Positions 632-34,197 of a stretch of DNA of 64,000 bases are shown here, piece after piece. Every line of letters begins with the position of its first letter. Within the stretch, counting starts at the first letter, position 1. The translations under genes were made by a program, and so were the position numbers. The notes beneath the pieces were generated by a model. That model made no database searches. It saw nothing but the letters and a program-made list of their open reading frames with translations, and had not been told where the DNA came from. Source of the stretch: Pseudanabaena frigida (GTDB lineage: Bacteria; Cyanobacteriota; Cyanobacteriia; Pseudanabaenales; Pseudanabaenaceae); contig QBML01000012.1 of assembly GCA_003242085.1 (NCBI GenBank), positions 62,001 to 126,000 on the forward strand, in the 5' to 3' direction.

Positions 632-2051
632 AACTGCGGCTAGAAGCCATATTTTCAAATTTAGTTAATCGAGGTTCAAATAATAATTTGACCGTACCGA
701 CAGGCCCATTCCGATGCTTGGCGATAATAATTTCTGCGACACCGCGATCGGGTGTCTCTGGGTTGTAATATTCATCGCGATACAGATTAATTACTAAATC
801 CGCGTCCTGCTCGATCGATCCACTTTCTCTCAAATCCGATAGCATTGGACGTTTGTTAGTTCTTGCTTCTACACCACGACTTAATTGGGATAGAGCGATT
901 ACAGGCACATTTAATTCGCGAGCTAAAGCTTTAAGCGATCGCGTAATTCTAGAAATCTCCTGCACCCGATTATCGGAACCAGAACCTTCCATCAATTGCA
1001 AATAATCAATCAAAATCAACCCAAGAGAGCCGCCTTTTTCTGATTGTAATCGACGTGCTTTTGATCTTAATTCGGTAATTGGTGGATTAGGCGTATCATC
1101 AATAAATAATGGCAATTCCGAGAGTCCACTAATTGCCATAGCAACCGTTCCCCATTCATTCTCGCTAATCTGCCCAGTGCGTAAGCGATTGCTATCAATG
1201 CCCATATCACTAGAACGCACTTTTGATTGACTAGCTAATAGACGATAAACCAATTGCTCCTTTGACATTTCTAAACTAAAAATTGCCACGGGCAATCGAT
1301 GGATATCTGCCATTTTTCGCGCTAGTTCTAAACCGAAGGCAGTTTTCCCCATTGACGGGCGACCTGCGATGATGATCAGATCTGATCGCTGTAGGCCGTT
1401 AGTCATGGCATCAAAGTCATAGAAACCCGTCACGAGTCCCGTTGCCGTAGTGTTGCCAGTGCCGAGTGAGTTAAACCGACTTTCGAGTTCGTAGAAAGTT
1501 TTGGTAAGAATATCGCCTGCGGGGACTAATCCTTGTTGCGCTCGCGATTGGGTAACCGCAAAAATCTTTTGTTCAGATTGATCGAGGAGTTGCGTAAGTT
1601 CAATTTCGTTGCTGTAACTGATCTCGACCACACCTCTTGCCGCTTCAGCAAGTTTGCGCCGTGCATATTTATCGGCAACTAATTGAGCATAAAAATCAAT
1701 ATTGACCGCGCTCACAGTGCGATCGCAAAGTTGGGCAATTTTAGATTGACCGCCAATTTTTTCGAGAAGATCGCGATCGCTGAGCCATGTAGTCAAGCTC
1801 ATCATGTCCGTGGGATTCGATTGATTATGCAACATCAAGCAAGCCCGAAAAATCTCCTGATGTGCCCCCACATAAAACATTTCGGGACGCAAGGTATCGA
1901 GCACTCGCGAAACCGCTTCAGGATCGATCAAGATCCCACCTAAGACAGCCTCCTCTGCCTCAATATTTTGTGGGGGCAAGCGATCGCTGATAGATTCAAA
2001 TTCTTTACTCATATACTTGCTCACTGATTGACTATCTAAGTAGCTAGACAT
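630..2051 (-). CDS. dnaB: Replicative DNA helicase DnaB
   Basis: This is the hexameric 5'-3' helicase that unwinds DNA at the replication fork. The N-terminal domain (about residues 25-130, NIEAEEAVLGGILIDPEA) is followed by the RecA-like motor with Walker A GRPSMGKTA near residue 230, Walker B LILIDYLQLM near 345 and the arginine-finger region LSRGVEARTNKRP. The length of 473 aa is normal and no intein interrupts it. The start is uncertain: the first five codons (MSSYL) lie inside a repeat arm at 2037-2057, and Met14 at 2012 fits the usual N-terminus better. Neither start has a clear ribosome binding site. The upstream gene at 2362 is divergent. Confidence 0.95.
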   Translation of the reverse strand: MSSYLDSQSVSKYMSKEFESISDRLPPQNIEAEEAVLGGILIDPEAVSRVLDTLRPEMFYVGAHQEIFRACLMLHNQSNPTDMMSLTTWLSDRDLLEKIGGQSKIAQLCDRTVSAVNIDFYAQLVADKYARRKLAEAARGVVEISYSNEIELTQLLDQSEQKIFAVTQSRAQQGLVPAGDILTKTFYELESRFNSLGTGNTTATGLVTGFYDFDAMTNGLQRSDLIIIAGRPSMGKTAFGLELARKMADIHRLPVAIFSLEMSKEQLVYRLLASQSKVRSSDMGIDSNRLRTGQISENEWGTVAMAISGLSELPLFIDDTPNPPITELRSKARRLQSEKGGSLGLILIDYLQLMEGSGSDNRVQEISRITRSLKALARELNVPVIALSQLSRGVEARTNKRPMLSDLRESGSIEQDADLVINLYRDEYYNPETPDRGVAEIIIAKHRNGPVGTVKLLFEPRLTKFENMASSRS

Positions 2052-2141
2052 AATTAAAAAACCAGATTCAAAACCTGTGGCGCACGCTGCGCGTGCGCCA
2101 CAGGTTTTTAGGTTTTATATTTAATTGCGCCCAGATGCTTA
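2037..2141. repeat. Palindromic MITE-like element, family A copy 2 (overlaps dnaB start)
   Basis: It has the same terminal repeat as the copy at 464-567 (TAAGTAGCTAGACATAATTAA at 2037-2057, partner at 2121-2141) and encloses a perfect 18-bp hairpin, 2070-2087 with 2091-2108, around TGC. The inner arm sequence differs from copy 1 but remains perfectly paired. The left arm holds the ATG used by the longest dnaB reading. Confidence 0.65.
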
Positions 2142-2275
2142 GGAAAAACGCCTAGAAATTTAGAGGCTAGTTTCAAGTGCATTCATAATCTTAGGTTCTA
2201 ATTGCCATAATGCTTCACTCAAAAAGTAAAGGCAGTCTCCATGCCACTATCTTTGAATTTGGAGATCGCGTCAGA

Positions 2276-2317
2276 CCAAAATAATAGGGTGGCACTTTGC
2301 GCCCCCTACTATTTTGG
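2276..2317. other. Imperfect gene-end hairpin
   Basis: CCAAAATAATAGGG at 2276-2289 pairs with CCCTACTATTTTGG at 2304-2317 with one mismatch; the centre is a decayed GC-TTT-GC apex. The rest of the 310-bp gap between dnaB and the next gene (2142-2275, 2318-2361) shows nothing recognisable beyond the presumed promoter region of the gene starting at 2362. Confidence 0.4.
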
Positions 2318-2361
2318 GTTGGAGATCGCTATAGTGCAGGTAGTAATGATAAGTAATTGAT

Positions 2362-3900
2362 ATGGGATTTGAGGAAGCATTTGTTTTTGTCGTAGCGGGC
2401 TGTATAGCAAGTTATCGTCAGCGATCGCTCCAGCTATCAAAAGATCGGCTGCAAATAATATTTTTGTGGATCTTGGCAGTCGCTTTACCAAGTTTAGCGA
2501 TCGCATGGACAAATCTCAATCAAGCACCCTTGCCAATAGTTTTTATCTCGATCGGCTTTCTTTTATATGTATGGATATATCGCAATTGGCAGCCATCTTC
2601 CGACGCAAACACCAACTTGATCGACCTAACTCCAAGTGAAGAAAAACAAGTTAAAGATTGCTTCCCATCTGCTATTTACCAATTAAAAGGTTTAGAGTAT
2701 CGTCCGCAAGAAATCTACTGTCGCGGTAACCTGCGATCGCAAAATCACAAATATGCCTACGACACGATTAATCAAAATATCCAAAAAGCATTTGGCGATC
2801 GGTTTGTTTGCTATCTAAAGGAAAGCCGATTAGAGAATTTAGGTACAAATTTTGGCGAATCTCAAAACGATCGTCCAAATAATACTAACTATTGTTTTTA
2901 TTTGATCCCTTCTAGCGAACGCCTCCAGTCATTACCCAAAACCTCCTCAATCCCAGACGATTGGCATAGTTGGATTACCAGTGCGATTGGAGCAATCCTG
3001 ACAGCTTTTACCTTATTGGCTGTAGGTGCAAATATCCATAGACCAGAAGATCTTAGTTTGATTAACTTGCAAAAAGGATTTCCCTACTTTTTAGGTGTAG
3101 CTAGCATATTGATATCGAGGGCGATCGCTCAATACTACATCGCCAAGAAAAACAGCCAGCAAATCGATCCACCGCTTTTACTACCCTGTATCGGTGGTTT
3201 TGGTCTACTAGGTATCTTAAATACCAACTTTAGCAAAGAGTTAAATGCAGAGCAAAACCATTCAAATCAGCGAAAAAACCTATTCGATCTAGTAGCAATA
3301 CCAGCCATCGTGGGCTTAACGCTCTCAACAATTTTATTGATTTTAGGCAATTGGGTATTGATTCCTACAACTCCAGCGCTTTCCGCACCTGTAATAGCCC
3401 CATCTATACTCATGCCCAACCTAGCTACTTTCGATTTCAAAACCTCTATTTTCACAAATATATTTCACGGCATATTGCAAGCAATTTCTAACTTAGGCAA
3501 ATCAGGAATTACTGGAATTAGTAATTCAGACTCCATTCCAGGCTTTTCGCCTCTCACATTAGCAGGTTGGACGGGATTAGCTTTGAGCGCTTTACAACTA
3601 ATGCCCTTTGATTTACTTGATGGCGGTAATCTGTCGATCGCCATGTTTGGACATCGTCAAGCAGTCCAAATCGCTCGCATCTCAAGGCTAATTTTACTAG
3701 CGATCGCCTTCCTTACCCAGCCTTGGCTGAGAATTTATAGCTTATTGTTATTTTTATTACCTACTCCTCGCCCACTCATTTTGAATGAAAGTATAGAAAT
3801 TGGCAGAAATCGAGATCTACTTGGCATGATCTTAATTGCGATCGTATTAATAATTATTCTCCCAGTACCAAAATCTTTTTTGTTAGCAAACTCTCTCTAA
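2362..3900 (+). CDS. Site-2-protease (M50/EGY-like) family membrane protein, predicted catalytically dead
   Basis: The layout matches cyanobacterial and plastid EGY-type intramembrane proteases: two N-terminal membrane segments, a soluble domain with LEYRP, CRGNLR and FGDRF (residues about 96-185), then a membrane core with the second metal motif LMPFDLLDGG (413-422) and FGHRQA. The first metal motif HExxH is missing; at its expected place the sequence is SRAIAQYYIAKK (252-263), where the two histidines and the glutamate are R, Q and A. Family membership is therefore well supported but zinc proteolysis is not, as in plant EGY3. It may act as a chaperone or a binding partner. The length (512 aa) is normal. 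Confidence 0.8.
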   Translation: MGFEEAFVFVVAGCIASYRQRSLQLSKDRLQIIFLWILAVALPSLAIAWTNLNQAPLPIVFISIGFLLYVWIYRNWQPSSDANTNLIDLTPSEEKQVKDCFPSAIYQLKGLEYRPQEIYCRGNLRSQNHKYAYDTINQNIQKAFGDRFVCYLKESRLENLGTNFGESQNDRPNNTNYCFYLIPSSERLQSLPKTSSIPDDWHSWITSAIGAILTAFTLLAVGANIHRPEDLSLINLQKGFPYFLGVASILISRAIAQYYIAKKNSQQIDPPLLLPCIGGFGLLGILNTNFSKELNAEQNHSNQRKNLFDLVAIPAIVGLTLSTILLILGNWVLIPTTPALSAPVIAPSILMPNLATFDFKTSIFTNIFHGILQAISNLGKSGITGISNSDSIPGFSPLTLAGWTGLALSALQLMPFDLLDGGNLSIAMFGHRQAVQIARISRLILLAIAFLTQPWLRIYSLLLFLLPTPRPLILNESIEIGRNRDLLGMILIAIVLIIILPVPKSFLLANSL

Positions 3901-14974: not shown

Positions 14975-15013
14975 CTATAAAGCGAGCAGTGCTTCGCACT
15001 GCTCGCTTTATAG
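14975..15013. terminator. Perfect 18-bp hairpin at the response-regulator 3' end
   Basis: Arms 14975-14992 and 14996-15013 are exact complements around TTC. The right arm contains the stop codon of the response regulator (15008-15010) on the minus strand. It has the GC-TTC-GC apex and separates convergent genes. Confidence 0.6.
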
Positions 15014-15673
15014 AAAATCATTTTGCATAGCGATCGCGATCGCTTGTTTGCGATCGCTTACTTCAAACTTATGCAAAATTGCATGGATATGTACGCGCAC
15101 TGTACCTGAAGAGATATAGAGCAAATCGGCAATTTCTTGATTGGTTTTGTTCTCAGACATCAACATCAAGATTTCTTTCTCGCGCCGAGTCAAAGTATTA
15201 ACTTTTGCCCCACCTGAATCATCGACGGTTAGTTCATTTGTCTGATTTTGAAAAATATTATGAATTTCAGCAGTAGCGGTGGCATCCCACCAAGAAGCAC
15301 CCGCAATTATCGATCGCATGGCAAGAATTAATGTCTCGGCAGCAACTCCTTTTAAGCAATAGCCCTGTGCGCCCACAGACACTAAGCGTGAAATCAGCGA
15401 TCGCTCGTTGCGCGAAGTTAAGATCAAAATTGGTAAGTTGGGATGATTGAGTTTGAGTTGACGGCAAGTCTCCATACCCCCCAGTCCTGGTAAACCAATA
15501 TCCAGTAGAACTAGATCGAAGGGTTGTTGCTTTGCAAGTTCGATCGCTGTTTCACCATCATTTGCCTCAGCCAAAACTTCAATTTTAGTTTCTTGTTGCA
15601 ATCGCACTTGTAAGCCCAGACGAAATAGCTCATCGTCTTCAACTAAAAGGATTTTGATGCGATCTAAGGTCAT
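15008..15673 (-). CDS. NarL/LuxR-type response regulator
   Basis: A 221-aa DNA-binding response regulator. The receiver has the acidic pair in LLVEDDELFRLG, the phosphoacceptor Asp in LVLLDIGLPGLGG, the switch Thr/Ser in ILILTSR and the Lys in YCLKG. The C-terminal LuxR-type helix-turn-helix is LTRREKEILMLMSENKTNQE followed by IADLLYISSGTVRVHIHAIL. It follows a sensor kinase on the same strand by 35 bases, with which it surely forms a two-component pair. Target genes are not apparent. Confidence 0.92.
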   Translation of the reverse strand: MTLDRIKILLVEDDELFRLGLQVRLQQETKIEVLAEANDGETAIELAKQQPFDLVLLDIGLPGLGGMETCRQLKLNHPNLPILILTSRNERSLISRLVSVGAQGYCLKGVAAETLILAMRSIIAGASWWDATATAEIHNIFQNQTNELTVDDSGGAKVNTLTRREKEILMLMSENKTNQEIADLLYISSGTVRVHIHAILHKFEVSDRKQAIAIAMQNDFL

Positions 15674-15682
15674 TTTTTAGAT

Positions 15683-15711
15683 TAGAGTATGGTGCGAAGC
15701 ACCTCACTCTA
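15683..15711 (-). other. Hairpin between kinase and response regulator
   Basis: TAGAGTATGGTGC at 15683-15695 pairs with 15699-15711 (two mismatches) around GAA. It overlaps the kinase stop codon region and has the GC-GAA-GC apex. It could tune the ratio of regulator to kinase, but this is inference. Confidence 0.4.
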
Positions 15712-16803
15712 TATGATATCTTGCGATGAATAGGGCAAAGCAGGCAAACGAAATCCAAAGATTGCACCTTGAGGAGTACGATTTTCTGCCCAGATTGTAC
15801 CGCCATGTGCTTCGACAATTTGGCGGGATAGGTATAAGCCCAGTCCTGAACCGCTAGCTTGGCGATCGCTTTGACCTTGATAAAACCTTTCAAATAAGTA
15901 TGGTTTTTCATCTGGTTTAATCCCCGCACCAAAATCAATCACTTGGACTATCTGATGCGATGACTCTGTCTCCAGTACTACCTCGACTTTAGCCCCCCTC
16001 GGTGAATGATTAATGGCATTGGCGAGCAGATTTGAAAAGACTCTCCGCAATTGGAAGTCATCACCATTCACCCAAAGAAATTTACGAAATTCAGAATCAC
16101 CATAATGTAAAGTCAAATAAACGCTGCGACTAGTCGATAGTGGAAGCAGTGAGGTGGCCACTTCTTCTGCTAAAGTTGCCAAATTAATTGGAGCTAATCT
16201 CAATTGCAAGCCTTCCGTTTCATTGCGATAGACATCAAGAAGGGTCTCAACTAAGCGCAAACTGTTCTGATGACTGCGAATCATCGTTGCTAATACTATT
16301 TTTTGTTTAAACTGAATACTCCCAAACTGTTCGCGTTCGAAGGCTTGTAGAGTTTCGATCGCACCTAGTAAGGGCGTTTTTAAATCATGGGCTAAAGTAG
16401 AAGCAAAATCTTCACGCACATTCATGATTTTTTCTTGAGCCTGTAGTTTTGCCTGTTGCTTTACCAAGGTTTGCAGTGTTAGGTGATGGCGATCGCTTAA
16501 AATCCCAGTTAAGATCAAAGCAAATACAGTCACCAAACGATTTACCACCATTGAAGCGTGAATTTCCCCATTGGGGGGAACCCAGATATTGAGTAACGTC
16601 AAAATTACCGCAGCTAAGATGATTTGAAATATAGCAACACGGCTCAATCGAGAATTAGCGATCAAGATTGGGCTGACGTAGAGATAACTCATTACATAGT
16701 CTGGCGGGGTGGAGAATTCTAAAGTAAATACTATTCCAAATAGCCCTGCAATTATCCAAAAGAAGGGCGATCGCCAAGATGGTTCTAATAATTGTTTGGA
16801 CAT
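15709..16803 (-). CDS. Membrane-bound sensor histidine kinase
   Basis: A 364-aa kinase with about four N-terminal membrane helices (residues 12-115, DYVMSYLYVSPILIANSRLS between them), a short coiled segment, a HisKA domain with the phosphorylated His in TLAHDLKTPLLGAIETLQAF, and an ATPase domain with N-box NLLANAINHSPRGA, G1 VIDFGAGIKPDE and G2 SGSGLGLYLSRQIVEAHGG. There is no separate periplasmic sensor, so it probably senses within the membrane. It pairs with the regulator just downstream. A 120-bp stretch of this gene (16488-16607) recurs at 25875-25994 as a fragment. Confidence 0.92.
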   Translation of the reverse strand: MSKQLLEPSWRSPFFWIIAGLFGIVFTLEFSTPPDYVMSYLYVSPILIANSRLSRVAIFQIILAAVILTLLNIWVPPNGEIHASMVVNRLVTVFALILTGILSDRHHLTLQTLVKQQAKLQAQEKIMNVREDFASTLAHDLKTPLLGAIETLQAFEREQFGSIQFKQKIVLATMIRSHQNSLRLVETLLDVYRNETEGLQLRLAPINLATLAEEVATSLLPLSTSRSVYLTLHYGDSEFRKFLWVNGDDFQLRRVFSNLLANAINHSPRGAKVEVVLETESSHQIVQVIDFGAGIKPDEKPYLFERFYQGQSDRQASGSGLGLYLSRQIVEAHGGTIWAENRTPQGAIFGFRLPALPYSSQDII

Positions 16804-16830
16804 ATATTAAGCCCTATGTTTCTCTAACAT

Positions 16831-17060
16831 GATCGCACCTCATCCCAAATCAAACTGCGATCGCCTATTTTCTCAGACACATTAAAACGATCGCCCTCTC
16901 ATTCCAAAAACCAACGATCTCAACTTATCTCAAATCAAACAGCGATCGCCTATTTTTGTCAGACACACTAAATGATTAAGGCGATCGCCCTCTCATTCCA
17001 AAAACCAACGATCTCAACTTATCTCAAATCAAACAGCGATCGCCTATATCCATCATCACG
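16831..17060. repeat. ~94-bp tandem repeat array, left of toxin-antitoxin pair
   Basis: About two and a half units follow the kinase gene; unit starts at 16888 and 16982 are 94 bases apart and a partial unit precedes them. Each unit reads CGATCGCCCTCTCATTCC, then CAAATCAAACAGCGATCGCC (fixed blocks separated by variable stretches), giving two HIP1-like sites per unit. No ORF is convincing here. This array fills most of the 324-base gap at 16804-17127. Confidence 0.8.
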
Positions 17061-17133
17061 AATTAGCAAGGCGATCGCATAAATATCTCTACGCAGCTAT
17101 AATGAGTTTAATGAAATTCAGGAGGGTATGGTT

Positions 17134-17529
17134 ATGAGTACTCCAGTTTTAGAAGCGGATCTCACTGTTAGCTCGGTAGTAAAATCAGCAGTAAATGTGT
17201 TTGTAAAAAGTGAAGCTAATGGCAAGGTTAGTGCTATGGTCTTGGGATTGCCAGAATATCGCGTAGAAAGTCGCGATCGCCAATCTGCTCTGGCTGATTT
17301 ACAAAAACTAGTTACAGCGAAGCTTATAGGTGCTGAAGTTGTTTCATTAGAAATCGAAATCCCTCAACCTGAAAATCCTTGGCTCCGTTTTGCAGGAATT
17401 TTTAAGGATGATCAGTCTTTTGATCGAATGCAAGAAGATATAGCTGAGTATCGTCGCGAAAAGGATGCTGAGTTAGAGAGCTACTATCATCAAATTGAGA
17501 TGGAAGAATCTAAGGAACAGGTTCTATGA
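17134..17529 (+). CDS. Putative antitoxin of a PIN toxin-antitoxin pair
   Basis: A protein of 131 aa that precedes and overlaps the PIN-domain gene by four bases (ATGA). The middle (SAMVLGLPEYRVESRDRQSA followed by LADLQKLV) resembles the small beta-alpha fold of HicB-type antitoxins, and the acidic tail with NPWLRFAGIFKDDQSFDRMQ resembles the toxin-wrapping tails of VapB-type antitoxins of cyanobacteria. Start choice: AGGAGGG lies at 17120-17126, seven bases before ATG 17134; the ATG at 17128 is too close. The pair sits between two arrays of the same 94-bp repeat. Confidence 0.7.
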   Translation: MSTPVLEADLTVSSVVKSAVNVFVKSEANGKVSAMVLGLPEYRVESRDRQSALADLQKLVTAKLIGAEVVSLEIEIPQPENPWLRFAGIFKDDQSFDRMQEDIAEYRREKDAELESYYHQIEMEESKEQVL

Positions 17530-17945
17530 CTTTATTGATTCTTGACACCGATCACATATCTTTGTATCAGCGAGGAGATCTGAATGTCATTAATCGACTG
17601 AGTTCGGCTAATTCCAAAAATCTAGCGGTTACGGTTATTTCGCTTGAGGAACAGATGTATGGAAGACTCAGTGAAATTAAGAAAGCTACTTCCGCTATCT
17701 CTTTGATAACTGCTTATTCGAGATTAGAAATCACTCTCGACTATTTCAAAAGTGTTCAAGTTTTGCCATTTGACCAAAATGCTCATACAACTTTTGAGAG
17801 TTTGATACGTCAAAAGTTGCGAGTTGGAACTCAAGATTTACGCATTGCGGCGATCGCTTTGTCTGTAAATGGGATAGTTGTACCTCGCAATCAAAAGGAT
17901 TTTGATAAAGTGCCAAATCTACAAGTAGAAAATTGGGCAGCTTAA
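17526..17945 (+). CDS. PIN-domain RNase toxin (VapC-like)
   Basis: A 139-aa PIN nuclease. The four acidic residues expected in the family are visible: LDTDHISLYQRG (first Asp pair), the Glu in SLEEQMYGRL, Asp in GTQDLRIAAIAL, and Asp in RNQKDFDKVPNLQVENW. It would cleave RNA (in VapC proteins usually tRNA or rRNA) when freed from its antitoxin. ATG at 17526 overlaps the antitoxin stop. Codon use is slightly more AT-rich than neighbouring housekeeping genes. No further gene follows before the repeat array. Confidence 0.85.
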   Translation: MTLLILDTDHISLYQRGDLNVINRLSSANSKNLAVTVISLEEQMYGRLSEIKKATSAISLITAYSRLEITLDYFKSVQVLPFDQNAHTTFESLIRQKLRVGTQDLRIAAIALSVNGIVVPRNQKDFDKVPNLQVENWAA

Positions 17946-17962
17946 CAAATAAAAATAGAAAC

Positions 17963-18228
17963 GCGATCGCCCTCTCATTCCATAATCTAACGATCGCAAC
18001 TCATCTCAAATTAAACAACGATCGCCTATTTCCTCAGACCCAATAAATGTTCAAAGTGATCGCCCTCTCACCCCACAAACCAAATGAATGCAACTCATCT
18101 CAAATCAAACAACGATCGCCTATTTACTCAGACAAGCTAAATGTTCAAAGCGATCGCCCTCTCATTCCACAAACCAAGGATCTCTTATTTCCCAAATCAA
18201 ACAGTGATCACCCCACACTGACCACAAA
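17963..18228. repeat. ~94-bp tandem repeat array, right of toxin-antitoxin pair
   Basis: Three units start at 17964, 18057 and 18151 (93-94 bases apart), the last one degraded. They share the blocks of the array at 16831-17060: GCGATCGCCCTCTCATTCCA, CTCATCTCAAAT, AACGATCGCCTATTT and CTCAGAC. They fill most of the 347-base gap before the end of the Roc-COR gene. Small ORFs here are repeat artefacts. Confidence 0.8.
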
Positions 18229-24301: not shown

Positions 24302-25277
24302 CCTTTAAAACTGCTTCTAAACCTAAAACTGAAGCAACTTGTTCACTGTCCGCATTAGTCCAAATCACCTCATTACCCTGAGATGCTTCAGGACGACGAT
24401 GTTGCAACGCCATCGCCGCCACTGCCCAAACATGATCTTGAGTCACCTGCCCTTCACCCTGTAATGCAGCATAGGCACGAGCCGCCAAAGCCATCACATA
24501 GTCACCGCGATTACCCTGCACTTGAAACTCTTTAGTCAACTTCACACAGCTTTCCACAACATCAGCAGGTAACTTCACCTCATAAAATTTCTTCTTTGCC
24601 GTTACCAGCCTTTGCTTGTAAGCCTCATCTTCTACCTTAGCTTTTGTCAGCAATTCAGGCAAAGAATAAGATGGGCGATCGCGCAACTCAGACCAAACCT
24701 CATCAAAGGCCAATACCGTATTTAAAATCTCGCGCCGTCGATCTATCTCTGTTTCTGTGACTACACTAACCATCAACCCAAAGCGATCGAGCAACTGAGG
24801 ACGCAAACCACCTTCTTCTGGGTTCATCGTTCCCACTAACGTAAATGCTAAAGATACTTCTTCGCTTTTCCCCTCACGCTGGATCACTAATACACCCGTT
24901 GAAGTCACATCCAAAATAATATTGACAATGTGATCGTCCAGCAAATTCACTTCATCAACATACAGCAACCCTCTGCGATCGGCTTCCACCAGCAAACCAT
25001 CTTGCCAATCTGGTTTACCCTTCATCAACTCATCAATTTTCCAACCACCCACTACCCGATCTTCCGTAGCATTGATCGGCAAAGTCACAGGCAATTGCCC
25101 ACGCATCATCTGTGCAAAAGCTCTCACCGCCGTTGACTTACCCGTACCCCGCTGACCACTAATCAACACACCACCAATACGCGGCGCAATATAAGCCAGT
25201 TCCAAGGCAAGCTTTAATTCCCTCTGACCCACAATCCGCGTGTAAGGCAAAACCTGATTAATTGTTGGCTGACTCAT
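24294..25277 (-). CDS. ChlI/MoxR-like AAA+ ATPase
   Basis: A protein of 327 aa with Walker A GQRGTGKST, the helix-2 segment LPINATEDRVVGG, Walker B GLLYVDEVNLLDD, sensor 1 LVGTMNPEEGGLRPQLLDRF and a lid with RGDYVMALAARAYAALQGEG. It closely follows ChlI in motifs but lacks the long insert normally found between Walker A and the ATEDRV segment. A longer start at 25298 exists; ATG 25277 overlaps the upstream stop as ATGA and is preferred. It would form a ring with the ChlD-like protein. The pairing with a CHAT protease and a Trypco1 protein suggests regulated assembly or unfolding, not pigment synthesis. Confidence 0.88.
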   Translation of the reverse strand: MSQPTINQVLPYTRIVGQRELKLALELAYIAPRIGGVLISGQRGTGKSTAVRAFAQMMRGQLPVTLPINATEDRVVGGWKIDELMKGKPDWQDGLLVEADRRGLLYVDEVNLLDDHIVNIILDVTSTGVLVIQREGKSEEVSLAFTLVGTMNPEEGGLRPQLLDRFGLMVSVVTETEIDRRREILNTVLAFDEVWSELRDRPSYSLPELLTKAKVEDEAYKQRLVTAKKKFYEVKLPADVVESCVKLTKEFQVQGNRGDYVMALAARAYAALQGEGQVTQDHVWAVAAMALQHRRPEASQGNEVIWTNADSEQVASVLGLEAVLKDG

Positions 25278-25630
25278 GGTTTCTTCTCTGATTTCCATTT
25301 CATGACTACTTCTAACTGCGCTCCCGCACTTACCTTAGCAATTACAGCACCCATCTCAGAGTCCAACTTAATCGCTAACTTTAACTCAAACTCATCAGGA
25401 CGGCTCGCCTCATTAATTGACTTGATCCCCGATACCGCCTTCACCGCACAGACGCGAACCAACTGCATCGCATCACCAAACGTATCAACAACTGCCTCCA
25501 CTGCCTTATTAGCAACATCTCCACCTCGTAGATCATCGTAGGGACTCGCCGCCGCAGGAAGTTGCTCCACTTCAACAAAAATAGTGATTTCTTCACCATC
25601 AATAGTTTCTGTTTTCTTAATAACTGGCAT
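25274..25630 (-). CDS. Trypco1 (CU044_2847 family) protein
   Basis: A 118-aa protein beginning MPVIKKTETIDGEEITIFVE with a short N-terminal beta unit, a helix around residues 40-68 (ANKAVEAVVDTFGDAMQLVR) and a C-terminal strand pair ending SAGAQLEVVMKWK. I recognise the trypsin-co-occurring domain 1 family, small proteins found beside proteases and NTPases in bacterial conflict systems. It is the first gene of the operon and overlaps the AAA+ gene by four bases. TAAAAT about 20 bases upstream could be a -10 box. Its likely job is to recruit or tether effectors; the molecular detail is not known. Confidence 0.82.
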   Translation of the reverse strand: MPVIKKTETIDGEEITIFVEVEQLPAAASPYDDLRGGDVANKAVEAVVDTFGDAMQLVRVCAVKAVSGIKSINEASRPDEFELKLAIKLDSEMGAVIAKVSAGAQLEVVMKWKSEKKP

Positions 25631-25827
25631 AAAAATCTCTAAATTTTAATTTTACCAGATAAATACATTCTAGAAAGATAGCTATAACGTTTAGCACAAA
25701 GGTAAATAGCATCAACTTAGATATACTCAATTCTTTTACGACCAGCATCCATCTACATTAAAGTTCAAGATTATCGGCTCACTAAAACTCAGCGATCGCC
25801 ATCGACTTAAAAAGAAGAATTTTCACC

Positions 25828-25883
25828 ATACTAAAAGAATGGATTCAGATTGGACTGAGATTGTTAATGATTGAGGCGATCGC
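25828..25883 (+). pseudogene. kdpA 5'-end-like fragment
   Basis: Fifty-six bases align without gaps to the first codons of kdpA at 30287 with about 75% identity; the translation ILKEWIQIGLRLLMIEAIA compares with [19 protein letters not shown]. The resemblance stops at a GCGATCGC octamer shared with the next fragment. There is no start codon or downstream frame, so it is a relic. Confidence 0.5.
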
Positions 25884-25994
25884 TTAAAATGCCAGTCAAG
25901 ATCAAAGCAAATATAGTCACCACACGATTCACCTCCATTGAAGCGTGAATTTCTCTATTGGCGGGAACCCAGATATTTAATAAAGTCAAAATTA
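25875..25994 (-). pseudogene. Histidine-kinase gene fragment
   Basis: These 120 bases align without gaps to 16488-16607 inside the sensor kinase gene, about 90% identical by my count (12 differences). The translation keeps LTLLNIWVPANREIHASM and VVTIFALILTGILSDR. There is no start, and a stop follows shortly. The 389-base gap 25631-26019 otherwise holds the presumed promoter of the conflict operon and no gene. Confidence 0.75.
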
Positions 25995-26019
25995 TAAAGT
26001 GTGAAGGAGAAGATTTGCA

Positions 26020-26622
26020 TTACCTTAACAGTAGATGACTTTGCCTTGACCAACACAAAAAACCTTCTTGATGCAGTTGCTTCATCAGTCGAGTAACAGT
26101 AACTCGTGATGTGGCGATCGCCTCAGCAATTTGATCGTGGGTTAAATGTAAATTGAGTTGCTTTCCTTCTTTAGTATCCTGTCCAAAACGATAAAACAAC
26201 CATTTCAAAAAAAGGATCAGGCGTTTTTTGACCATTTTTTGTTGCGTTATCTGAAGAAAATCTTCCATTCGTTTGACATGCGCGAGTAATGCAGAAGTTG
26301 GACAAGCTGTAAAGGGATGGAGAATAGTTGCTTCAACTTCTGTCAAGCACTCAATTTGATAGGGAACAATATCAGAAAGCCTGCTACCAACAATATCCCC
26401 AGCACTCCAAAATCCTAATGAAATTAAGATCCCATCCTCATCGAGAGTAGAAACTCGAACTATCCCTTTGCTGATATACCATAAGGAACTGCTGTAAGGT
26501 TGGATTAATTCCTGACGCTGAAATTTATATGTTTTTCCTTGGGGTAAATTGAGCGTGGGATCGGAAATATTGTCTACAGATATTACTTTAGCAAGCTTTT
26601 CGTCTGAAGTTAAAACAAACAT
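26020..26622 (-). CDS. Crp/Fnr-family transcriptional regulator
   Basis: A 200-aa regulator with an N-terminal cyclic-nucleotide-like beta barrel (about residues 25-110: LPQGKTYKFQRQEL, SLWYISKGIVRVSTLDEDG, GFWSAGDIVG) and a C-terminal winged helix, LHLTHDQIAEAIATSRVTVT followed by RLMKQLHQEGFL. The cAMP-binding PRSAxA-type signature is not evident, and there is no Fnr cysteine cluster, so the signal is unknown. The longest reading starts at TTG 26694; ATG 26622 (MFVLTSDEK) is more likely. It follows a glycosyltransferase-like gene on the same strand by about 77 bases and may be cotranscribed with it. Confidence 0.82.
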   Translation of the reverse strand: MFVLTSDEKLAKVISVDNISDPTLNLPQGKTYKFQRQELIQPYSSSLWYISKGIVRVSTLDEDGILISLGFWSAGDIVGSRLSDIVPYQIECLTEVEATILHPFTACPTSALLAHVKRMEDFLQITQQKMVKKRLILFLKWLFYRFGQDTKEGKQLNLHLTHDQIAEAIATSRVTVTRLMKQLHQEGFLCWSRQSHLLLR

Positions 26623-26698
26623 TTGATTATCCCTACTTTTAGGTTTTAGGTAGATGTGACGCAAGATTCGACATCTACTCACTGCGTAAGCCAATGAA

Positions 26699-28645: not shown

Positions 28646-30016
28646 TTAGCCAAAGTAGTTGTCTTCATCTTCATCTTCATCTTCATCTTTGTCACTATTT
28701 TGAAAATCATCATTCTTTTTTAAAATGGCTCTTCGCCTGTTCTCTAAAACTGCCAACCCCACTAAGCCTGTTATTCCTGCAGTCAAGCCAAGAATTATTT
28801 GATTGTTCTTTGCAGAATCAATACCTGAAGAACGAGGCGCACTAAGCGTAAAGATGATGATGCTCAAGCAAAATGATAGACTAGCGATCGCCACACTACC
28901 GAAAAAAGTACCGATACCTACAATCAACACACGCTGCACTAAGGGAAGCGATTTAAGGGAATCTAGATCGTCAGCGAATAGTGGAATTTCTTGATCTGCG
29001 GTATCGTCTGCTAGAAGTAGTGGACTGACCGAAAAATTTGATTTGCTTGGAATCGTTGTACTCCGATCTGAATTCTCTATGTTGCTTACAGAGGATATTA
29101 GATTTATAGGAATATTCTTTTTAACCTGTCCCTCAGTCATTGATGAAGCATTGAGATCGATTAATACTTCAGTTGCTGATTGGTAACGCCGCCTGATGGA
29201 TGGTTGCAACAATTTATTGAGAATAGCTTTTAGGTCGGGACTGATAGGCTGCGATAGATAAGCTTGCCATTTCCAGTCATTCTCCACGATGTCATACAAA
29301 TCAAATGGCGAGGTTTGCGTTAACAAATACAAGCAAGTCACGCCTAAACTGTATAGGTCACTGGCGAAGACTGCTTTACCTTTGATTTGTTCGGGAGCCG
29401 CGTATTCCACACTACCGATCATCGTTCCTGTATAAATCGGTCTGATGTTAATGAGTTGTTTGGCTGCACCAAAATCAACCAGAACCAGTTGCCGATCACA
29501 CTTTCGTCGAATGATATTGTCAGGTTTAATATCGCGATGTACGATCTGGCGATCGTGGAGATATTGCAAAACAGGTAGTATCTCTTGCAAGACCTTTCGC
29601 ACTTCTATTTCATGGAATGGAATAGTACCCGCAACCTCCTGTTGTAATGTCCATCCATCGATCCATTCTTGCACGATGAAACTTTCTCCATCCTGCTCAA
29701 AGCTATCCAGCAATTTAGGAATTTGAGGATGTTCCTCTAATTGAGCAAGTCGCTGTGCTTCTTGTTGAAAGAGCGTTTGAATCTTTTGTCGATGAATTGA
29801 ATGATTGGGGAGAAGTTGTTTGACAACACAGAGGAGCGGCGATTGCAGCTCATCAATAGCAAGAAAGGTTCTACCAAATCCTCCTTCGCCTAGAAGATTG
29901 AGGATACGATAGCGTTCGCGGATTAGATTAGATGGATTGAAAGGGAAATGATTGTCGCTTATCAATGGATACCCAGATGGATGTCTATTGAGAGGTGGAT
30001 AAGAGCAGATATACAT
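28646..30016 (-). CDS. Serine/threonine protein kinase, membrane-anchored
   Basis: A Hanks-type kinase of 456 aa: glycine loop LLGEGGFGRTFLAID, catalytic loop IVHRDIKPDNIIRR, DFG in LVLVDFGAAKQL, and the activation segment with GTMIGSVEYAAPEQIKG. After the kinase domain (about 30-285) there is a linker and two hydrophobic segments (about 365-392 and 405-425). The extreme C-terminus is an acidic DEDEDEDED run encoded by a TTCATC hexamer repeat near 28662-28690. The target is unknown. It is divergent from kdpA, sharing a 270-base intergenic region. Confidence 0.92.
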   Translation of the reverse strand: MYICSYPPLNRHPSGYPLISDNHFPFNPSNLIRERYRILNLLGEGGFGRTFLAIDELQSPLLCVVKQLLPNHSIHRQKIQTLFQQEAQRLAQLEEHPQIPKLLDSFEQDGESFIVQEWIDGWTLQQEVAGTIPFHEIEVRKVLQEILPVLQYLHDRQIVHRDIKPDNIIRRKCDRQLVLVDFGAAKQLINIRPIYTGTMIGSVEYAAPEQIKGKAVFASDLYSLGVTCLYLLTQTSPFDLYDIVENDWKWQAYLSQPISPDLKAILNKLLQPSIRRRYQSATEVLIDLNASSMTEGQVKKNIPINLISSVSNIENSDRSTTIPSKSNFSVSPLLLADDTADQEIPLFADDLDSLKSLPLVQRVLIVGIGTFFGSVAIASLSFCLSIIIFTLSAPRSSGIDSAKNNQIILGLTAGITGLVGLAVLENRRRAILKKNDDFQNSDKDEDEDEDEDNYFG

Positions 30017-30117
30017 AGCATAAGTACGTCAGGGAGCACTGAATTGGGCTAACCTACTCAATTGATGTGTCAAACTCTAGCACTGCAAATTTCCATAAAT
30101 CAATATATCTGAGATAT

Positions 30118-30175
30118 AGAAAGTGTTTAAGCCATCTAAACACTTTCTAAACGTTTTCTAAACGCCTCTAACTGA
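30118..30175. promoter_or_regulatory. Candidate operator between STK and kdpA
   Basis: TCTAAAC occurs at 30136, 30147 and 30158, and TCTAAC at 30168, a spacing of 11, 11 and 10 bases, one helical turn each. In addition AAAGTGTTTA (30121-30130) and TAAACACTTT (30138-30147) form a perfect inverted repeat. Phased direct repeats fit an OmpR/PhoB-type regulator. This lies 110-170 bases before kdpA. No other feature was seen in the gap 30017-30286. Confidence 0.45.
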
Positions 30176-30286
30176 GAGTATTGCTAATTAAGATAAATCA
30201 GCCTAAACGCAAAGTTATACCTGTACAAAGCTTCTAAAACAACCGATGATTTATTCATCCAAGCTATTTCTAGATGGAATTTATCG

Positions 30287-31996
30287 ATGCTACAGGGATG
30301 GATACAAATTGGACTGACACTGGTGCTGATTGTAGCGATTGCTCCAATCTTTGGCAGCTATATCGCACGAGTGTTTCTAGGACAAAAGACAATATTAGAC
30401 TCAGTTTTAAATCCATTGGAAAGTTTGATTTTCAATCTCAGTGGAGTTAAGGCTGAAAGCCAAATGACAGGATGGCAATATGCTCGCGCTGTCTTGTATA
30501 GCAGTTTTGCTATGTCAATACTGGTATTCTCGCTCATCATGTTTCAGGGAGCGTTACCGCTAAACCCAACATCTCTGAGCGCACCAACTTGGGATACAGC
30601 GCTACATACCACGATTTCGTTTATCACAAATACCGATCAACAGCATTATTCAGGGGAAACCACGCTCAGTTATGCTTCACAGACGCTGGGACTTGGTTTC
30701 ATGTTTTTTACGTCCGCAGCAACAGGGCTGGCTGTGGGGATCGCATTTATTCGCGGTTTAACTGGTAGGGCTTTAGGTAATTTCTACGTCGATCTAACCA
30801 AATCAATTACTCGTATTCTGTTACCAATTAGTATTATCGGCACGATCGCCTTTATCGCCGCAGGTGTTCCTGAAACTCTTTCAGCTCCATTAGTCGTGCC
30901 GACTTTAGAAGATCCTAATATTAGTCAGGCGATCGCCTTGGGGCCAGTTGCCCACTTCGAGTTCATCAAACAACTTGGCGAAAACGGCGGCGGCTTTTTC
31001 GCAATTAACTCCGCCCATCCCTTTGAGAATCCCAATGGTTTCTCTAATCTGCTTCAGACTTTGGCGATGATCTCGATTCCAACGGCGTTGATTCATACCT
31101 ATGGAATAATTGCCAATAATCGCAAACAAGCTTGGCTATTGTTTGGCATGGTGTTTATTCTCTATGTTGCTTTCATTATTGTTGTAGGGATTGGAGAATA
31201 TCAGGGAAATCCCCTTGTAAATACCTTGCTCGGCACGCAGAGTCCGAATTTAGAAGGTAAAGAAGTTAGATTTGGTTGGGCGCAGTCTGCTCTATTTGCA
31301 GTGACAACTACTGGAACCATGACGGGCGCAGTTAACTCTTTGCATGACTCGTTTATGCCAAACGGTGGTTTTGTCACTCTATCGAATATGTTTCTACAAA
31401 TTATTTGGGGTGGACAAGGAACGGGAACCGCTTATCTATTTGCCTACTCGATTTTGGCGGTATTTGTGACAGGGCTAATGGTTGGTAGAACACCAGAATT
31501 TCTAGGAAGGAAGATCGAGAAAAATGAGGTGGTTTTAACCAGTTTCTTAATTCTGCTCGTTCACCCAATTGTGATTCTGATTCCTGCGGCGATCGCCTTA
31601 GCATTTCCCGACCAATTGGCAGGCATCAGTAACCCTGGATTTCATGGAATTTCTCAAGTAGTTTACGAGTATGCCTCAGCTGCGGCAAATAATGGTTCTG
31701 GCTTTGAAGGTTTAGCTGATAGTCAACCCGCCGCAACAGGACTCTGGTGGAACCTCAGTACCTGCTTTAGTCTGTTGGGTGGTCGCTTTGTCCCAATTAT
31801 TGCCTTGCTGTTATTAGCAGATGGAATGTCGCGCAAGCAGCCAGTTGCCATGACGACAGGTACACTTCGCACCGATACAGTTCTATTTACCACTGTCACC
31901 GCAGGTGTGATTGTGGTTATGGGTGCATTAACTTTTTTTCCCGTACTTGCGCTAGGTCCAATTGCCGAAGCATTTCTGATCGCCAGAGGCGGCTGA
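30287..31996 (+). CDS. kdpA: Potassium-transporting ATPase subunit A
   Basis: KdpA is the channel-like, K+-selective subunit of the high-affinity KdpFABC pump. The 569-aa protein begins [20 protein letters not shown] and has the four repeat pore motifs: [49 protein letters not shown] and [17 protein letters not shown]. About ten membrane helices are visible and the length is normal. It is the first gene of the kdp operon, induced by K+ shortage or osmotic stress in other cyanobacteria; the phased repeats upstream may be the control site. Confidence 0.96.
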
Positions 31997-32010: not shown

Positions 32011-34197
32011 ATGAAACAAAGTTTCGATAAAAATTCTCTAGAGTTGGATCGCAAAGCGCTACAGGGCAGCAATAGTTCTCTTTTAAAATCTATGAACAAC
32101 AATACAAAAAGCAACTTGTCATCTCAACCCAAACAGGCGCTTGGCAGCACTCGCGAATCCCGTAGACATACGCCAAAAGCATCTATGTCTGGACTATATC
32201 AACGCGCCGTTCGTGATGCTTTCCGTAAACTCGATCCGCGCATTGCTGTTCGCAATCCTGTCATGTTTATGGTTTGGGTTGGTACGATTGTCACCTTACT
32301 CGTCACCATCGATCCCAACTTATTTGGAACCGTACAAGCCGATCCTAATTCCCAGCGCACACTCAATGGCTTGATTACCGTAATTCTCTTTTTTACAGTA
32401 ATATTTGCCAACTTTGCAGAGGCGATCGCTGAGGGACGTGGTAAAGCCCAAGCAGACTCATTGCGAACTACGCGATCGGATACGATCGCTCGTAAAGTCT
32501 TGCCTGATGGTTCGATTCAGGAAACGAGTTCCACCGAATTACGTCGTGGCGATTTAGTAAAAGTGAAGATCGGTGAATTAGTTCCCTCCGATGGGGAAGT
32601 AATCGCTGGCATCGCTTCAGTCGATGAGTCAGCGATTACAGGAGAGTCGGCTCCAGTTCTCAAACAACCAGGGACGGATATTTCCAGTTCAGTTACGGGC
32701 GGAACTCGTGTAGTTTCTGATGAACTGACGATCAAAATTACGGCTGACCCCGGACAAGGATTTATCGATCGCATGATCGCTCTTGTGGAAGGAGCGGAAC
32801 GCACAAAAACACCCAACGAAATCGCCTTGACGGTTCTGCTGACTGTGCTTACACAGGTATTTCTAATCGTCGTCGCGACGATTCCACCGATCGCTAATTA
32901 TGTCCAAACTCCGACAACGATCGCCATCTTGATTTCACTGGTAGTCGCCCTAATTCCGACGACAATTGGGGGGCTGCTGAGTGCGATCGGCATTGCAGGC
33001 ATGGATCGGGTCGCGCAGTTTAACGTGATTGCCACATCAGGTCGCGCAGTCGAAGCTTGCGGCGATATCAATACTTTAGTACTTGATAAAACAGGCACAA
33101 TTACCCTCGGCAATCGCCTCGCCGATGAGTTTATCCCTGTGAATGGACATTCCCTCGCCGAAGTCGCTAGTGTTGCTCTTGCGGCAAGCATCTTTGATGA
33201 AACGCCCGAAGGTCGCTCAATTGTCCAGCTAGCCGAACAATCAGGAGCAGTCACTAAATTCGATCGCACTCTAGCCAAAGGGATTGATTTCTCCGCACGT
33301 ACCCGCATGAGTGGCACTGATTTACCCGATGATATCGAGGTTCGCAAAGGTGCAGTTGATTCTATCAGAGGTTTTGTGCGATCGCGTTCTGGGGAAGTGC
33401 CACCAGAGTTTGAGGCCGCCTATGAGAAAGTGTCTAAACTTGGTGGAACACCTTTGGGAGTGTGTTTAGGTGGCGATTTGCACGGCGTAATTTATCTCAA
33501 AGATATTGTCAAACCAGGTTTGCGCGAACGATTCGATCAACTACGGCGGATGGGCGTTCGCACGATCATGCTTACGGGGGACAACCAGATTACGGCTTCC
33601 GTAATTGCGGAAGAAGCAGGTGTCGATGACTTCATTGCTGAAGCCACACCCGAAGATAAAATCGAAGTAATTCGCCGCGAACAGTCTCAGGGTAAGTTGG
33701 TAGCCATGACAGGCGATGGTACAAATGACGCTCCTGCTCTGGCACAGGCAAATGTCGGTGTAGCGATGAACTCAGGTACTCAAGCCGCCAAGGAAGCTGC
33801 AAATATGGTGGATTTGGATAGCGATCCAACGAAGTTAATCGATCTAGTGGCGATCGGTAAGCAATTACTGATTACACGCGGAGCCTTAACTACTTTCTCG
33901 ATCGCTAACGACATCGCTAAATACTTTGCAATCATTCCTACGATCTTCGCTGCCGCAGGGATTGGGGCGTTGAATGTGATGGGTCTAAAAAGTCCCCAAT
34001 CAGCAATTCTCTCCGCCTTAATCTACAACGCTCTTATCATTCCTGCACTAATTCCTCTAGCTCTCAAAGGAGTGAAATTCCGTCCTCTCACCGCCGATCA
34101 ACTCTTGCAGCGTAATATTCTGCTTTACGGTCTAGGCGGCGTTATCGCACCATTTATCGCGATCAAACTCATCGATATTCTATTGCCAATTGCTTAA
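32011..34197 (+). CDS. kdpB: Potassium-transporting ATPase subunit B
   Basis: KdpB is the P-type ATPase that powers K+ import. Motifs: TGES in [13 protein letters not shown], phosphorylated Asp in [25 protein letters not shown], and [20 protein letters not shown]. The M4 region has [15 protein letters not shown]. The first 60 residues are Ser/Asn/Gln-rich and poorly conserved; ATG 32092 ([11 protein letters not shown]) is an alternative start that would shorten the tail to the family's usual size. It follows kdpA by 14 bases and precedes kdpF by two. All catalytic residues are present. Confidence 0.96.

Follow-up and report, generated by a model that had tools for sequence, protein, structure and literature searches.

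How did pieces of two unrelated genes come to be joined at a single copy of HIP1, the abundant palindromic octamer of cyanobacteria, and did HIP1 act there as anything other than a common word? The question is raised by a short intergenic relic in Pseudanabaena frigida, which lies in a 64-kb stretch of one contig (the window) where a kdpA-like fragment on the plus strand meets a histidine kinase fragment on the minus strand (Table 1). To our knowledge HIP1 has no agreed function, and a part in recombination has been suggested for it for decades. A scar whose parents and ancestral order are known, and for which the expected use of HIP1 can be counted, offers a model for a genome-wide test.

The intergenic gap that holds the relic extends from 25631 to 26019. 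When positions 25631-26030 were compared by BLASTN with the rest of the window, two matches stood far above all others: 25875-25994 agrees with 16488-16607, inside an intact histidine kinase gene (HK), at 108 of 120 positions (E 1e-42), and 25828-25884 agrees with 30287-30343, the start of kdpA, at 43 of 57 (E 1e-5). Searched against the genome of 5.39 Mb in 67 contigs, the query gave only one other strong match among those listed, that to the kinase; the 39 others were short, with E values of at least 0.01. We also built nucleotide profiles, one from 19 related kdpA 5' ends (the aligned rows of 20 relatives minus G004) and one from 14 HK 5' ends, the window's own HK among them. Besides the intact genes, nhmmer placed the kdpA profile at 25800-25883 (E 4.6e-18) and the HK profile at 25994-25875 (E 1.9e-34) in the window, and the two matches overlap at GCGATCGC only, plus at most one flanking base.

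Table 1. Features of the window that bear on the kdpA-kinase joint (positions in the window; a dot marks features given without strand).
Feature	Position	Strand	Evidence
LuxR-type response regulator (RR) paired with HK, within the conserved RR-HK / kdpAB layout	15008-15673	-	
Intact histidine kinase (HK), donor of the right half; donor stretch 16488-16607, HIP1 at 16489-16496	15709-16803	-	BLASTN; HisKA, HATPase_c
Small gene	25274-25630	-	Trypco1 domain
Second HIP1, adjoining the left edge of the kdpA relic	25792-25799	.	nhmmer edge at 25800
kdpA relic: 28-bp leader and first 19 codons, start codon now ATA	25800-25883	+	nhmmer; 43/57 to own kdpA start; alignment of 22 leaders
Histidine kinase relic: 39 complete codons, open frame, without start, 90% identity to the intact gene	25875-25994	-	BLASTN; nhmmer; tree
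HIP1 GCGATCGC common to both halves (junction)	25876-25883	.	Sole overlap of the two profile matches; sequence check
Crp-like regulator	26020-26694	-	
Intact kdpA, relative of the left half; HIP1 variant GCGATTGC at 30335-30342	30287-31996	+	BLASTN; Pfam scan; sequence check
Gene taken to be kdpB from its position after kdpA; downstream member of the conserved RR-HK / kdpAB layout	32011-34197	+	

A preliminary description of this locus had placed the kdpA-like fragment at 25828-25883. The fragment is present, but its true start is at 25800, with the leader included, and the profile E value puts the resemblance to kdpA well above background. The kinase fragment of the same description was recovered with the limits that it had given, as were the octamer shared by the two halves, the same octamer in the kinase gene and a one-base variant in kdpA. 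The Ser/Thr kinase next to kdpA, considered as a kinase donor, did not match; the fragment derives from the two-component histidine kinase.

Homology reaching beyond both pieces was rejected on shuffle scores: to the left of 25800, similarity to the kdpA upstream region was not above that of shuffled sequences (59 of 200 score as well), nor was similarity to the HK 5' region to the right of 25994 (180 of 200). In the profile search 25789-25808 also matched HK faintly, with reversed orientation and an E value of 0.21; we took this as chance. The second HIP1, at the left edge, has no HIP1 at the equivalent place in the aligned related kdpA leaders. The kdpA-HK joint was not found in the 25 other genomes of the genus and had no match in plasmid records, and an exact-match pattern across it gave 0 matches in a genome contig collection from which the own genome or very near ones may be missing. 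Since no relative has the same joint, the event is seen once.

We then looked at the octamer in the two parents. At the homologous place of kdpA, HIP1 is found in 17 of 20 related 5' rows (one of the 17 being a relic in G019, described below), the exceptions being G021, G008 and G018. As this is the common state, the GCGATTGC of the own kdpA, one base off HIP1, looks derived. In HK the octamer is carried by the own gene and by 11 of 12 related rows, all but that of G002. Its presence in the own HK and in most related HK and kdpA genes indicates that it most likely stood in both parents before the join. The homology shared at the joint amounts to 8 bp, or to 9 if the next T, common to HK and to the kdpA of G000 and G019, is counted. 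By arithmetic from the G000 counts, a random blunt join of HK and kdpA would fall inside a shared word of at least 8 bases about 2 times in 10,000, and short homology was thus very probably used in making the joint.

These results bear on an alternative in which the resemblance is due to chance or HIP1 arose later by substitution at a blunt joint. HIP1, the commonest octamer of the genome, is indeed very frequent here (105 copies in the 64 kb, against 0.84 expected from shuffles), and the title of one cited study has HIP1 spreading by substitution. The E values of the two profile matches speak against chance resemblance, however, and the octamers at the homologous place in both parents of most relatives, being older than the joint, speak against a late HIP1. 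We regard this alternative as extremely unlikely.

Can the relic still encode anything, and how did it arise? A functional chimeric gene was rejected. The kdpA part now starts with ATA and runs into a stop one codon past the joint; the HK piece has an open frame and no start codon. Three of the four private changes of the HK piece are nonsynonymous. With the start lost, the kdpA frame stopped and these changes in the kinase part, the relic is without coding function, and it is probably functionless altogether. Relaxed selection on the HK piece is only suggested by these changes, because private changes in the intact genes are nonsynonymous as well, 4 of 7 in the own HK and 3 of 7 in that of G019. 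Over its 120 bases the HK piece is identical to the own HK at 108 and to the G019 HK at 108 (own versus G019, 105), and to the HK of G020 at 103, G021 at 103, G002 at 98 and G009 at 90. A small tree grouped it with the own and G019 genes (support 0.88), the support for the own rather than the G019 gene as its nearest relative being 0.14. The piece, nearest to these two, thus arose within this lineage. The HK of G009 (G009:C535, locus L013) is itself uneven, with an identity to the own HK of 71-86% over the first 400 bases and 88-95% thereafter; it looks like a mosaic, as if recombined.

The surroundings of the parents proved to be conserved. Nineteen relatives in the genus carry this HK. In ten of them (G004, G005, G010, G012, G013, G014, G017, G021, G023 and G024), HK on the minus strand and kdpA on the plus strand are divergent neighbours about 0.2-8.4 kb apart. 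In G002 about 62 kb separate the two genes on a single contig; in G019, G020, G008, G011, G016, G018 and G025 they are on separate contigs, and the sole kdpA found in G009 is a distant one (48% identity) on a different contig from HK. In the window they hold the same divergent orientation with 13.5 kb between them, and the relic sits in this interval, the kdpA piece preceding the HK piece on the plus strand. At the joint the parental order is therefore reversed, between the parents and in the same orientation, as in a tandem-duplication junction. Both the divergent-neighbour parents and this placement had been overlooked in the preliminary description.

We think it likely that an old local tandem duplication, running from HK to kdpA and made through short homology at HIP1, left the relic as its decayed joint. 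The ancestor would have had HK and kdpA as divergent neighbours on the minus and plus strands, with HIP1 inside each coding sequence. A short-homology exchange between the HIP1 of HK and that at codons 17-19 of kdpA, by slippage, template switching or end joining, would have duplicated the HK-kdpA interval and given the order HK - kdpA(5') / HK(5') - kdpA, with a single HIP1 at the joint. Unrelated genes on both sides would then have overwritten the rest and isolated the joint, leaving it to decay to about 195 bp. No short word common to both loci is as abundant as HIP1, which probably explains why it served at the joint. Against a duplication stands the fact that the predicted second copy is missing and the rest of the unit is absent on both sides of the joint, and for this reason we file the relic only as a remnant resembling a tandem-duplication joint.

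Two other courses could have left such a remnant. A larger tandem duplication, producing a second HK-kdp locus, followed by a deletion between the HIP1 of the first kdpA and that of the second HK, would yield the same joint and position. Copies of kdp existed in the lineage, as the sister genome G019 has an extra kdpA 5' end beside HK and an intact kdp operon elsewhere, and a HIP1-associated deletion has a precedent in smtB, according to excerpts of PMC6331805. This course requires two events, however, and neither BLASTN nor the profiles revealed anything more of a second kdp 5' region in the window; we hold it to be rather unlikely. We give still less weight to ectopic capture, the insertion here of an excised circle or of a pair of gene fragments that had been joined as filler DNA. 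A circle excised between two HIP1 copies would hold the same kdpA-HK joint, and neither flank of the relic has genes related to the HK-kdp unit; but chance would have to place it, correctly oriented, between its own parents, and by arithmetic from the genome length a copy random in place and orientation would fall there in about 0.13% of cases. Ectopic capture is thus very unlikely.

Against the local duplication it also counts that its joint is seen once and that the kdpA side of the interval must have changed since. The relic retains the leader that is common in relatives, whereas the own kdpA has a shorter one, as does G004, which means that the region upstream of the own kdpA was altered later. 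The short leader common to the own and G004 genes lacks about 24 bp relative to the other relatives. From the relic to kdpA the window carries the Crp-like, p482 and Ser/Thr-kinase genes. In G004 (locus L082, 7455-9106), as in the window (28646-30286), HK and kdpA have a Ser/Thr kinase gene between them, and the two kinases are only 62% identical.

Is HIP1 special in this process? Between the HK and kdp loci of seven genomes, HIP1 lies within 12-26% of the maximal exact shared words of at least 8 bases and within 20-36% of those of at least 9. With such a share of the words of 8 bases or more, its use at the joint needs no further cause. The preliminary description had proposed a microhomology join at HIP1: two unrelated gene pieces are indeed joined in a short homology that is HIP1, but the idea that HIP1 as such drives joins finds no support, a single use being expected from abundance. 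The test proposed with it, whether ends of partial duplications coincide with HIP1, gave a slight excess in a small sample: a shared HIP1 lay at 2 of 194 ends, versus 3 of 1439 interior windows. The ends belong to 97 low-copy partial duplications in 1.48 Mb (four stretches outside the window), kept from 1182 matching pairs as low-copy and 50-1500 bp long, the rest being multi-copy or of other length. In the stretch of the window 3 of 15 pairs were kept, and its single HIP1 end is the relic itself, which stands outside the 194. Indels gave 0 of 8 at HIP1 in about 116 kb of aligned relative pairs, again a small sample, in which two or more pairs among G020, G002 and G021 may show one and the same event. 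Neither of the two other partial kdpA 5' copies among the 26 genus genomes ends at HIP1. Samples this small leave room for a modest HIP1 effect.

These counts bear on recombination specific to HIP1, in which a cyanobacterial enzyme or methylation state would favour exchange there and the relic would be one of its products. The junction falls precisely at HIP1, a second HIP1 adjoins the other edge of the kdpA piece, and the duplication ends show the slight excess just given. Against this, HIP1 already makes up its large share of the common words, 192 of the 194 ends, all 8 indels and both other kdpA 5' copies are not at HIP1, and one cited study, judging by its title, had similar excision frequencies in E. 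coli and Synechococcus. We consider such a mechanism improbable. That HIP1 is a true hot spot of the genus, where genes are duplicated and cut beyond what its abundance accounts for and of which the relic is one of many scars, we find marginally less probable again. The present answer leans to HIP1 having been used through being common; if a large census found an excess, the palindrome would be linked to genome rearrangement.

In bacteria, short-homology tandem duplication doubles the stretch between two short direct repeats and leaves one repeat at the joint. The relic differs from such duplications in general in that its repeat is an over-represented cyanobacterial palindrome and in that the duplicated copy has since been lost. 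It is a further case of HIP1-associated rearrangement, a class already in print. Excerpts of PMC6331805 name smtB of Synechococcus PCC 6301 as the place where HIP1 was originally discovered and mention the proposal that it promotes gene rearrangements, and the reference list of that paper gives Gupta et al. 1993 for a deletion involving HIP1. Both smtB and the relic are rearrangements associated with HIP1 sites; as far as these excerpts go, smtB is a deletion in a cadmium-tolerant strain, whereas the relic is the likely joint of a duplication, old, decayed and known from comparison alone. The excision and recombination studies of Robinson et al. 1997 and Akiyama et al. 1998, as cited in PMC4390886, likewise concern exchange between DNA segments at HIP1. 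By that citation they are experiments with cloned sequences and plasmid recombination, and the relic is a single chromosomal event deduced from sequence.

The genus genomes appear strongly rearranged in the stretches compared. The whole-stretch comparison of G017 and G023 gave about 12.5 kb collinear of 356 kb, and that of G020 and G002 gave 115 matching pieces of at least 80 bp, the larger ones chiefly in a single block of about 25 kb. Little gene order is shared by genomes whose kdpA genes are 95-96% identical (G017:C1 and G023:C1; G020:C4 and G002:C1), which may reflect much rearrangement or exchange of kdp.

At 16823-17051 and 17945-18220 the window contains multiple copies of HIP1-rich repeats, each about 90 bp long, flanking two small genes (17128-17945) that we presume to be a toxin-antitoxin pair, and most genomes of the genus have related stretches. 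G019 has an independent kdpA 5' relic (G019:C54:16351-16458; locus L036, 16351-16458) that comprises codons 1-36 and directly follows HK; its end, after codon 36, lies in a palindrome with kdpA sequence in one of the arms, and the intact kdp operon of that genome lies on a different contig. In G006 (G006:C383:4761-4916; locus L024, about 1395-1550) a copy of the kdpA promoter, leader and six codons stands in frame before another long ORF (locus positions 1529-3046, 506 aa to the end of the locus), a possible capture of the kdp promoter.
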